Below, in pieces: positions 17,139-51,790 of a DNA stretch of 64,000 nucleotides; position 1 is the first letter of the stretch; every line of letters begins with the position of its first letter. Source of the DNA: Hirudinaria manillensis. Taxonomy: Eukaryota; Annelida; Clitellata; Hirudinida; Hirudinidae. The position numbers were made by a program, and so were the translations under genes. The notes beneath the pieces are model-generated. The model searched no databases and was not told the origin of the DNA. It saw only the letters and a list, made by a program, of their open reading frames with translations. The stretch is from NCBI GenBank assembly GCA_034509925.1, contig CM067530.1, positions 3,877,501 through 3,941,500 of the forward strand. The letters are read 5' to 3'.

Positions 17139-17539
17139 TCAGGAATAAGACGTCCCAATTTCTGCCAGGCAGACTGGATTTTGGGGTCGAAAGACCTCGG
17201 CCGTTTCGCTGGGCTGGGGTGGCTCCACCACCTTCTTCCTCCTACGGGGGTGGCGTACGGTACCACCGCCTCGTTCCGCCGTTCCATCGTCCGTGGTCTG
17301 CGATTCCTGATCCGGTTCATCCTTTCCTGACTTGACGGCCATCAATCTGGAGGTGCGTTTGTGGAGATGGTAGAAGCGATAGACCAGTATCACTATCATG
17401 ATCACGACCGACACCGTCAGGACCGCTCCCCAGACTGCCAGGCCAATGATGACCATGTTCAGTCGGTTGTCAGCACTCGCCAGGGTTTGGAGGTTTCCGG
17501 TAATTATGTCCACCATGCCGGTTAAATCTTCCTTCATAG
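17139..17539 (-). CDS. last exon of giant collagen: juxtamembrane helix, transmembrane segment, cytoplasmic tail
   Basis: Begins after CCAACAG in phase 1, exactly matching the phase-1 end of the last collagen exon (17707-17829), so the join is in frame. The first 27 residues carry a hydrophobic heptad (Leu5, Ile12, Leu19, Leu26, with Val9 and Leu16 one turn on), a plausible short trimerising coiled coil. Residues about 28-53 are a strong transmembrane segment ([20 protein letters not shown] onward), followed by the basic stop-transfer RFYHLHKR. The 79-residue tail is polar, with an RHPRRRKK cluster and PP-containing patch, and ends GTSYS then TGA. No furin-type site is evident between helix and membrane, so how the ectodomain might be released is unclear. 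Confidence 0.92.
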
Positions 17540-50500: not shown

Positions 50501-51790
50501 GTTCAAGGCAGACTGCTTGTTGCCAGTAAGACTGAGAATTGTCTGTTACGAATGTTAATGAGGTTCATGCAATTTGCTAATAATGATAAGTCAGACATTA
50601 GGTACTGTAAATGTATTGGATGGTTTCCAAAATCAAAACATGCATTTCCAAATAAGCATTTCGACATTAATGATATCTATGCCATCGTCATAAAACGTGA
50701 TACCAAATTCCTTCGCAATGCATTTTTGCAAATTAAATCTTTCAAAAAAAAATTAGTAGGAACCAAACTCCATGAATTTCAAAGGCCATACCTCCTCCGA
50801 TGTGGCGTATCGAATGAGCCCCACGTGAACAGCATTTTCGCTAATGTTGAGGGTGTTAAAAGCCTGGGTCAAGAAGGTGGTGACCCTATCCCAGTCAGCT
50901 CTTCTGATGCTGCTGCTACTGTCGATGAGAAAGATGATATCCTGGGGTGCATTGCACGGAAGTAGAGCTGTTTGGGTTGAGATTCAATCGATTAATCGTG
51001 TCAAATCAATCATAGAATCAATCAGATTTTATCCGATGAGTCAATCAGTCAATCTACCGTAAAATACTCCATATCATCATCGATCATTACGTCAACCATG
51101 ACCAAGGTATTCCAAGAAATCGATTATTGAATGAATAAGTCAAGCGAATAAGAAATAATAGACGCAAAAATGTCGACAATAGCAAAAACTTTCTTTTTAT
51201 TTACTAAGAACTGCTTCTGCTTAACAAGAATTTAATAACAACACGTCGTCAAAACGGCGACCATCGGACGCCATGTTGCCGGTACTAGCTGTAGCTGAAG
51301 GAAGTGTCCATAGACATGAAAGTAATGCAATTTCAAATGAAATTTGGAGCAGAAATTGTCAAATAATATCGGCAAAAATGGAAAATAAAAATTTTATTTA
51401 TTTATATTAATTTTTCCAGAAAATTATTGAAAAGTTGTTTATTATTATTTTAAAAAAATGTTCACATTCTCACATTTGTTTACTTAAAAACACATTAATG
51501 ACAATAGAAATATCCTGAAAAATAATTACTCCAGCCATCTATCGAGAGAAAACAACGTATTATAGGATTAAAAACGTTTAAAATAAAACCCACGAATCAC
51601 TCTTAACATCATCACTATCACCACCATCATCGTCATCACTATCATCACCGCATGTTACTTCCCAAACATCACCTTGTCCAGCAGCCTGTTGGGTGGCACA
51701 TGAGATGATGAAGACGACGACGATGGATGTCAGTGACATCCATCTGCCGATAGGAACAGAGTTCCCGCGCTCTTTGTTTGTCATCCTCAT
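17139..51790 (-). CDS. giant membrane-anchored vWA-collagen, candidate annelid cuticle collagen
   Basis: 62 coding exons join in frame to about 9,017 residues. Order: signal peptide (1-39), vWA domain (about 44-228), collagen triple helix (about 234-8880), 27-residue helical linker, one transmembrane segment and a 79-residue cytoplasmic tail. Intron phases agree at every junction I checked, and 57 successive Gly-X-Y exons all split a Gly codon after its first base. Thr is very common in the Y position. I infer an annelid cuticle collagen: those are, from memory, 2.4-2.6 micrometre molecules stabilised by galactosylated Y-position Thr, and about 8,650 residues at 0.286 nm predict about 2.5 micrometres. 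It would be made in epidermis as a type I membrane protein and extend into the cuticle. Exon coordinates are given in the component entries. The gene model is from reading splice sites by eye, without transcripts. Confidence 0.9.
17707..24955 (-). CDS. giant collagen, Gly-X-Y exons, C-terminal block (11 exons)
   Basis: Exons: 17707-17829, 18101-18307, 18376-18591, 18663-20039, 20141-20677, 20742-21344, 21426-22037, 22146-22856, 23056-23505, 23588-24361, 24497-24955. Each begins with the last two bases of a Gly codon and ends with the first base of one. This block is the most Pro-rich ([20 protein letters not shown]) and holds the longest exon (1377 nt, 459 residues). It carries several RGD triplets (for example GPRGDIG) and one GSPGER, similar to integrin-binding G-x-O-G-E-R motifs. 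The exon 20141-20677 has one short break in the repeat (GSPNTG). The intron after exon 20742-21344 begins GC (CAG/GCAAGC). The last triplets before the membrane exon are irregular (GAGVAA). Confidence 0.93.
25067..32829 (-). CDS. giant collagen, Gly-X-Y exons, second block (12 exons)
   Basis: Exons: 25067-25660, 25782-27095, 27219-27677, 27807-28409, 28499-29083, 29192-29530, 29629-29757, 29820-30224, 30304-31194, 31353-31892, 31989-32321, 32398-32829. All are phase 1-1. For exon 29192-29530 two acceptors are possible; the outer one (TTTAATAG) keeps perfect Gly-X-Y continuity with exon 29629-29757 (GNQGAKGAPG), so I chose it. Gln and Thr are both common in Y (GQQGQQG, GATGFTG). Intron lengths are short, mostly 60-180 nt. 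Confidence 0.92.
33032..41022 (-). CDS. giant collagen, Gly-X-Y exons, third block (15 exons)
   Basis: Exons: 33032-33346, 33418-34449, 34543-35001, 35096-35356, 35440-35790, 35943-36392, 36468-36971, 37117-37512, 37568-38521, 38596-39108, 39241-39681, 39761-40048, 40124-40384, 40452-40694, 40771-41022. This is the Thr-richest part: exon 37568-38521 has long [16 protein letters not shown] stretches with Phe frequent in X (GFTG). Two breaks of the repeat are seen: GSSVQG in exon 33418-34449 and GPPPRTG in exon 37117-37512, where a Gly is replaced. The intron 41023-41284 contains only a single TTAGGG-like hexamer pair and no repeat array. Confidence 0.92.
41285..49663 (-). CDS. giant collagen, Gly-X-Y exons, N-terminal block (19 exons)
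   Basis: Exons: 41285-41644, 41701-42276, 42438-42662, 42794-43144, 43220-43444, 43520-43870, 43936-44160, 44228-44596, 44665-45030, 45102-45416, 45575-45799, 45877-46227, 46309-46677, 46782-47222, 47341-47592, 47711-48070, 48171-48584, 48723-49334, 49511-49663. The last of these is the first collagen exon of the protein and joins the vWA domain as GPPKG/GTTGFTG. Exon sizes recur (225 nt five times, 351 nt four times), as if copied. Three introns here start with GC: after exons 41701-42276, 43220-43444 and 46782-47222. Exon 44665-45030 has a break (GALGQGVIG). Toward the vWA end Pro content rises again. Confidence 0.92.
49412..49481. repeat. (ATT)n microsatellite in collagen intron
   Basis: About 22 perfect units in intron 49335-49510, between the first two collagen exons. 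It is the only long microsatellite I noticed inside this 34-kb gene, which contrasts with the flanks. Confidence 0.95.
49751..50009 (-). CDS. giant collagen, vWA exon 3
   Basis: 86 codons plus one base, phase 0 to 1, after CTCCCTGCAG. It starts [12 protein letters not shown], the vWA beta-strand carrying the third MIDAS residue (Asp154 in TDG), and ends [11 protein letters not shown]. The Cys near the end probably pairs with Cys44 to close the domain, as in matrilin and collagen vWA modules, and the following Gly begins the triple helix. Confidence 0.93.
50396..50542 (-). CDS. giant collagen, vWA exon 2
   Basis: 49 codons, phase 0-0, after CGTAACAG and before GTGGGC. It encodes [20 protein letters not shown] onward, with GGSTNL supplying the MIDAS Thr (Thr124), then the amphipathic helix [11 protein letters not shown]. 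Another reading frame is open through 50492-50965 on the plus strand but crosses exon and intron alike and has no family features. Confidence 0.93.
50792..50967 (-). CDS. giant collagen, vWA exon 1
   Basis: Phase 1 to 0, after CCCAAACAG and before GTATGG. It encodes [20 protein letters not shown] and the next strands to [14 protein letters not shown] (Asp55, Ser57, Ser59) is a complete MIDAS DxSxS, so the domain should bind a divalent cation and could contact ligands such as other cuticle or matrix proteins. Confidence 0.94.
51673..51790 (-). CDS. giant collagen, signal-peptide exon
   Basis: 39 codons plus one base, ending CAAG/GTGATG in phase 1, compatible with vWA exon 1. Met18 begins a textbook signal peptide ([18 protein letters not shown], then AAGQ); Met1 and Met3 add a basic N-terminal extension and Met18 may be the real start. 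An unseen 5' non-coding exon is possible. A second donor further on (GGAA/GTAACA) would not keep the reading frame with vWA exon 1. Confidence 0.85.

Follow-up and report, generated by a model that had tools for sequence, protein, structure and literature searches.

Which molecule does a giant collagen gene on contig 5 of the leech Hirudinaria manillensis encode, and with which partners would it assemble? Annelid cuticle collagens are among the longest purified proteins (about 2.4–2.6 µm for the isolated molecules, shorter in Riftia at about 1.5 µm) and, to our knowledge, their chains, ends and assembly have long been unclear. We analysed a 64,000-nucleotide stretch of this contig (GenBank assembly GCA_034509925.1, CM067530.1, positions 3,877,501 to 3,941,500 of the forward strand, here called the window), in which the gene, named C5 after its contig, lies on the minus strand from 51790 to 17139. 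Gene models and comparison with other chains of the same genome indicate that the product of C5 is very probably one of the three different chains that make up a 2.47 µm ABC heterotrimer, most likely an epidermal annelid cuticle collagen.

The gene was modelled with a splice-aware Viterbi decoder having states for Gly, X, Y and non-collagen codons and for introns of every phase; its training data were first the window and then the full set of six giant collagen loci described below. A preliminary description of this DNA had traced 62 in-frame exons from 51790 to 17139, and the decoder, run blind to that trace, returned the identical start, stop and exon count. The decoder's own exons 1–4 gave a wrong reading of the von Willebrand A (vWA) domain and were replaced by hand-refined exons; GC-AG introns were permitted afterwards. 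The final model has 62 exons, a coding sequence of 27,054 bases including the stop and 9,017 residues, with 57 GT and 4 GC donors and AG acceptors at all 61 introns. All 57 helix introns are in phase 1 and 51 of the 56 collagen exons are a multiple of 9 bases, and at the level of sequence the decoding confirms that C5 is a real, unusually large gene.

The four GC-AG introns were selected by score under a penalty. One, with donor GCAAGT (46678..46781, minus strand, as for all C5 features), removes a spurious interruption of the GT-only model; the others have donors GCGAGT (43145..43219), GCAGGT (41645..41700) and GCAAGC (20678..20741). They are supported because, with them, all 57 helix introns turn phase 1 and the interchain charge register becomes simpler in four of six comparisons. 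The discarded GT-only models gave a false interruption of the C5 helix near residue 747 and unequal long-chain lengths (8622/8646/8653), both resolved by the GC-AG introns. Such introns are fairly frequent, at 4 of 61 in C5 with others in four further collagen loci (C3b, C3a, C2 and C9), and can mislead GT-only prediction. The intron after exon 5 carries a trinucleotide repeat run (about 49430–49480) that reads as poly-Ile/poly-Asn in translation.

From N to C terminus, the C5 protein comprises a signal peptide, one vWA domain, a Gly-X-Y helix, a putative coiled coil, one transmembrane segment and a basic tail. Exon 1 (51673..51790) holds the start codon and the signal peptide, called from hydropathy (hydrophobic residues 11–31). 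Exons 2–4 (49751..50967, as 50967-50792, 50542-50396 and 50009-49751) encode the vWA domain, which matches Pfam PF00092 (E 1.8e-28, 100.4 bits) and carries DSSSS, GGSTN and TDGES motifs, the first of which we take to be a metal-ion-dependent adhesion site of the DxSxS type. Among solved structures its top class was vWA, with collagen VI alpha 3 first and then integrin alpha-1/2 (36 distinct sequences at E<=1e-5). Exons 5–61 (17707..49663, decoder model) encode the helix, whose 8,646 residues run from the split Gly codon at 49751 to 17723; it lacks Cys and has six imperfections, at helix residues 228, 1243, 3203, 4252, 6535 and 7987. Exon 62 (17139..17539) encodes the putative short coiled coil, judged by eye, a single Kyte-Doolittle transmembrane stretch at about residues 8912–8944, a basic cytoplasmic tail and the stop; a Pfam scan of this C-terminal region gave no match. 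The preliminary description had proposed a single-pass membrane vWA-collagen of about 9,000 residues with a helix of about 8,650 residues and about 2.5 µm, and these figures hold: at 0.286 nm per residue the helix has a predicted length of 2.47 µm, within the 2.4–2.6 µm range of isolated cuticle collagens. Elsewhere in the genome, a dense cluster of complete vWA domains lies in large open frames at C6:5113813-5125917 (minus strand).

The preliminary description also took C5 to be a molecule in its own right, and this part did not stand, so that the earlier interpretation is partly supported overall: the evidence makes C5 one of three different chains, and a second, shorter trio exists. A collagen-family search of the genome gave five dense clusters besides C5 (158 matches; best 150 of 1,264 candidates scored), and a Thr-rich query placed 144 of 145 matches at E<=1e-6 within the six loci and one on contig 12; with the best 150 of 599 candidates scored, six loci is a lower bound. 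The long trio consists of C5, C3b (C3:9650001-9700000) and C9 (C9:5836001-5886000, pieces L022-L026), and the short trio of C3a (C3:4254001-4284000), C1 (C1:11150001-11180000) and C2 (C2:5890001-5920000). The helices have 8,646 (C5), 8,652 and 8,653 residues in the long trio, and 5,186, 5,188 and 5,188 residues (1.48 µm) in the short trio, with ends uncertain by about a triplet. The lengths thus spread over 7 residues in about 8,650 and over 2 in 5,188. Interruptions also fall at neighbouring positions: for the long trio these are 1243/1246/1249, 4252/4257/4257, 6535/6541/6540 and 7987/7991/7993, and for the short trio 37/40/37, 113/113/110, 215/216/214 and 322/318/318. Many further interruptions in the three shorter chains, with His or rare residues at X or Y, came from window-only emission values and were gone after retraining.

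The chains are related by their introns, although hardly by their X and Y residues (both comparisons used GT-only models). C5 (57 introns) and C3b (59) have 54 introns in common, with equal length in 45 of 53 intervals. At a single shift 32 positions match exactly, whereas 200 shuffles of the exon lengths never gave more than 5. C9 (63) has 43 in common with C5 and 44 with C3b; in the short trio, C3a (20) has 17 in common with each of C1 (36) and C2 (21), and C1 and C2 have 16. X/Y identity between C5 and C3b is near that of shifted controls (z 2.7 and 1.5), and in equal-length intervals z ranges from -2.4 to 3.7, the highest being C3b–C9 at X (0.135 vs 0.110 in the control). In-register X/Y identity therefore carries almost no signal as a kinship test, and intron positions and charges are informative instead. 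Thus, the chains are old paralogues whose alignment at X and Y has nearly been lost while their lengths stayed unchanged.

Threonine is concentrated at Y (24.9–40.7%) relative to X (3.1–4.0%) across the six chains. In C5 the values are 29.8% and 3.6%. Residues at Y in the long trio are 24.9–29.8% Thr and 18.2–20.0% Pro, and in the short trio 36.3–40.7% Thr and 10.0–12.5% Pro. Size and composition, together with the printed context discussed at the end, point to a cuticle identity for C5. A giant heterotrimeric membrane collagen of another tissue (basal lamina, gut lining, pharynx or connective tissue) is unlikely: vWA and EGF-like domains do occur in basal and interstitial matrix proteins too, but the length and the Thr-at-Y composition fit those reported for annelid cuticle collagens, and the 144 of 145 Thr-rich matches place giant helices of this kind at these six loci only, among the best 150 of 599 candidates.

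The assignment of the chains to heterotrimers comes from their charges. Without using an alignment, we matched each K/R at a Y position with D/E at the X positions of a second chain and counted the pairs for every residue shift from -150 to 150. In the long trio the top counts were 104 at +3 for C3b to C9, 102 at 0 for C9 to C5, and 110 at +9 with 94 at +6 for C5 to C3b; in the short trio they were 60 at +4 for C1 to C3a, 60 at +2 for C3a to C2 and 75 at +6 for C2 to C1. Far-shift maxima for these six forward contacts, in the same order, were 21, 22, 25, 17, 14 and 17, and triplet shuffles of two contacts (earlier models, 200 each) reached no more than 24 and 21, where the real chains had 104 and 60. 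At the local register, 162 of 227, 144 of 227 and 145 of 222 K/R residues are paired in the long trio; the corresponding short-trio figures are 63 of 135, 60 of 117 and 75 of 140. All 18 between-trio comparisons were flat (maximum 14 near zero shift, 13 elsewhere).

Resolved by residue, the signal is mainly Lys(Y)-Asp(X), enriched 14- to 20-fold at one register between different chains of a trio. It peaks at +3 (91), 0 (97) and +9 (83) in the long trio and at +4 (52), +2 (51) and +6 (62) in the short trio, and 83 of the 93 Lys(Y) of C5 are paired with Asp(X) of C3b. Round each trio these shifts sum to 12 (3+0+9 and 4+2+6), that is, three one-triplet contacts plus one extra triplet, as one-residue staggering of three chains predicts. 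Arg(Y)-Glu(X) peaks one triplet below Lys-Asp, with counts of 14, 19 and 55 in the long trio (shift sum 3) and just 12, 7 and 6 in the short trio. The doubled C5 to C3b peak was initially considered a mixed register, which was dropped as the Lys-Asp and Arg-Glu pairs separate by one triplet. A scan of residue pairs gave 84 combinations with |z|>5.5, and the six top values (44, 41, 36, 35, 34 and 29) all belong to Lys(Y)-Asp(X), one for each of the six contacts. We read the two trios as two ABC heterotrimers, on a statistical rather than a biochemical basis: the pairing links non-identical chains at a fixed register and in a fixed order, which kinship alone would not explain.

The same register bears on threonine. 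One triplet below the axial (Lys-Asp) contact, at the lateral contact, Thr(Y)-Pro(X) pairs numbered 10, 10, 29, 14, 13 and 16, against 39.8, 33.6, 91.5, 53.1, 71.4 and 65.9 expected from far shifts, a 3- to 6-fold depletion in all six contacts. All six contacts show an excess of Pro(Y)-Pro(X) at this position, and depletion of Ser is not consistent. A sugar on Thr at Y would explain the avoidance of Pro(X), although the avoidance as such is at most compatible with galactosylation of Thr.

Several observations weigh against reading the chains as heterotrimers in the cuticle. In the long trio, the reverse pairs exceed background (42 for C3b to C5, 29 for C9 to C3b and 32 for C5 to C9, vs 29, 18 and 20), as do the self pairs (54, 54 and 45 vs far maxima of 29, 32 and 25), and there may be a homotypic component. 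Over the first ~1,500 residues of the long trio the register signal is weak, and in several places the fitted shift changes by 1–3 residues. The long-trio interruptions near 228/258/260 are 30 apart and several others are not common to all chains; the termini of C3b, C9, C3a, C1 and C2 are less certain than those of C5; and the lengths of isolated cuticle collagens used for comparison are general background figures. Lys-Glu has no clear peak in the long trio (best 5–6) and small peaks in the short trio, while Arg-Asp has none in the short trio and a long-trio peak near the Arg-Glu shift. The missing Lys-Glu (long) and Arg-Asp (short) peaks indicate, in turn, that the pairing rule is specific and is not general electrostatics.

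The long-trio self pairs, and the common intron positions that make the chains paralogues, would also suit three separate homotrimers, one per gene, with equal lengths from common descent or from packing in one fibre. We regard this as very unlikely. Long-trio cross pairs are about twice as frequent as the self pairs; in the short trio the self pairs are flat (18, 20 and 18, equal to their far maxima) against cross pairs of 60, 60 and 75. Reverse pairs in the short trio are flat too (16, 18 and 19 vs far maxima of 16, 18 and 18). Common descent does not predict that the strong signal should follow a single cyclic direction, with shifts adding up to 12.

The register also checks the frame and exon content of C5 independently, from helix residue 9 to 8586, more weakly in the first ~1,500. 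With the GC-AG models four comparisons were fitted with fewer register segments (7 to 5, 10 to 8 and, twice, 2 to 1) and the other two kept their 6 and 2, and the switching penalty of 7, against 6 for the earlier models, may account for part of this drop. It is extremely improbable that the long frame is an artefact, in which a decoder that rewards Gly-X-Y and picked the four GC-AG introns by score had joined at least two genes or the parts of a misassembled repeat array. The charge register of C5 stays almost constant against chains that were decoded independently from other contigs, and the GC-AG introns simplified that register though the decoder never saw the other chains (the penalty change may contribute).

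For the ABC heterotrimers, we infer an assembly order, glycosylation, release from the membrane and a location in the cuticle, and propose the following course. The signal peptide would bring each chain into the secretory pathway and the C-terminal membrane segment would keep it tethered, in type I topology. Trimers would start at the short membrane-side coiled coil, from which the helix would zip from C to N terminus. Register would be set by hundreds of directed salt bridges, axial ones from Lys(Y) to Asp(X) of the next chain and lateral ones, one triplet lower, between Arg(Y) and Glu(X); in intron-anchored numbering, C3b would be the leading, C9 the middle and C5 the trailing chain. Thr at Y, probably galactosylated, would stand in for much of the stabilising hydroxyproline and would avoid Pro at the lateral X of the chain beside it. 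At the N terminus of C5, the vWA domain may serve as an outward binding or assembly head. The second trio (contigs 3, 1 and 2) would form a 1.48 µm heterotrimer with EGF-like domains between helix and membrane. Taken together, two obligate ABC membrane-anchored giant collagens of 2.47 and 1.48 µm would probably account for both length classes of cuticle collagen, with order and register readable from sequence through a code between chains, in which Lys(Y)-Asp(X) bridges are axial, Arg(Y)-Glu(X) bridges are lateral and Pro(X) is excluded beside Thr(Y) as the footprint of a sugar-bearing Thr; this code would have kept near-randomised chains equal in length.

The ends of the five partner chains were read by eye. 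C3b has a vWA-like domain (41.3 bits, two exon readings joined by eye) with LLDVKLY at the metal-site position, so that the site is degenerate. No vWA was found in the first 12 kb of the C9 stretch (best E about 4), where a signal-peptide exon, read by eye, is joined to the helix via a GC-AG intron. A few kb upstream of the C9 chain, on the same strand, lies a glycosyltransferase family 11 (fucosyltransferase-like) frame (L022:3897-4634, 83.6 bits). The short-trio chains have, by eye, an N-terminal domain with a common RLQIWRP stretch (C3:4260053-4260714, C1:11152963-11153596 and C2:5895321-5896263). Pfam gave no match for the C2 and C1 pieces, and solved structures (PDB) gave none for C2. The C2 piece used as a genome query found itself, the C3 partner at E 6e-4 and one chance-level match, and did not find the C1 partner; the three-member N-terminal family therefore rests there on RLQIWRP by eye. 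EGF-like or FXa-inhibition repeats lie between helix and membrane, from scans in C2 and C3a and by eye in C1, and the transmembrane segments of all five chains were seen by eye only.

Other features were recorded in passing. In window coordinates, the upstream neighbours of C5 are two long reverse transcriptase frames, at 3116-6553 and 7202-10249 (both plus strand; RVT_1, 105.5 and 114.7 bits), which by make-up look like non-long-terminal-repeat retrotransposons. A marginal UBX domain match lies at 58224-58790 (minus strand; 21.7 bits, cut-off 21). The genome also holds a hirudin family match (33.9 bits, above cut-off) in a short frame with one stop, and eight erythrocruorin linker family matches, seven of them above cut-off, as fits a leech.

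With six candidate genes, a domain plan and an expected chain ratio of 1:1:1, peptide mapping can address the cuticle-collagen question. The charge register provides an extensive natural record of heterotrimer order over thousands of residues in which X and Y drift almost freely; it is relevant to collagen design and offers a validation of repetitive gene models that are rarely spanned by transcripts.

We compared C5 with known collagen systems. Fibrillar collagens have a COLFI C-propeptide after the helix and a 54-base, phase-0 exon scheme, whereas C5 has a C-terminal region with no Pfam match and helix introns all in phase 1. Collagen VI, whose alpha 3 chain is the best solved-structure match of the C5 vWA domain, has several vWA domains and a short helix, against one vWA and 8,646 helix residues in C5. 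The MACITs (XIII, XXIII and XXV) resemble C5 in crossing the membrane once and in having a coiled coil next to it, putative in C5; they differ in their type II topology with an N-terminal membrane segment, where C5 has an N-terminal signal peptide and, by hydropathy, a C-terminal anchor, and a passage of PMC4678570 gives them as not identified in Annelida. Nematode cuticle collagens are described in part of PMC11766948 as short interrupted Gly-X-Y blocks between conserved Cys, unlike the long Cys-free helix of C5.

The closest likeness is to the annelid cuticle collagens (Lumbricus, Nereis, Alvinella and Riftia), which are known as proteins from chemistry and microscopy, whereas the leech evidence comes from genes. 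To go by a title on the Riftia cuticle collagen, Thr and not hydroxyproline reportedly dominates the stabilising Y positions. Annelid cuticle collagens are described in part of PMC11766948 as a very long triple helix with a globular domain; correspondingly, the leech genes give helices of 2.47 and 1.48 µm, comparable with the lengths given above, Thr dominant at Y and a globular domain at one end, the N-terminal vWA. No primary length data for cuticle collagens were found in searches of an open-access library, nor any report of the domain plan or chain composition of C5.

Giant annelid collagens were in print by 2025. Under its cuticle heading, PMC12403961 lists a collagen of 8,859 residues for Alvinella, with similar ones for Paralvinella and Eisenia andrei, gene models of the same size class as C5. 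The counts in its Table 1 (5,698 for Alvinella and 5,660 for Eisenia) are too high to be triplets of an 8,859-residue protein; halved, they would be 2,849 and 2,830, and an overlapping count of the same pattern in the leech long chains gives 2,844, 2,855 and 2,841. The main text of that paper has no occurrence of von Willebrand, vWA, transmembrane or heterotrimer, and neither a domain plan nor sets of chains appear in its section 12. The short trio is a candidate counterpart of the Riftia cuticle collagen, because siboglinids are reported in that section of PMC12403961 as having no collagen of the 8,859-residue length, and because of its 1.48 µm helix and its composition at Y (Thr 36–41% vs Pro 10–12.5%). 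Beyond what the chemistry of annelid cuticle collagens has given, the leech genes reveal a vWA head, a membrane anchor and two three-chain sets in one genome.

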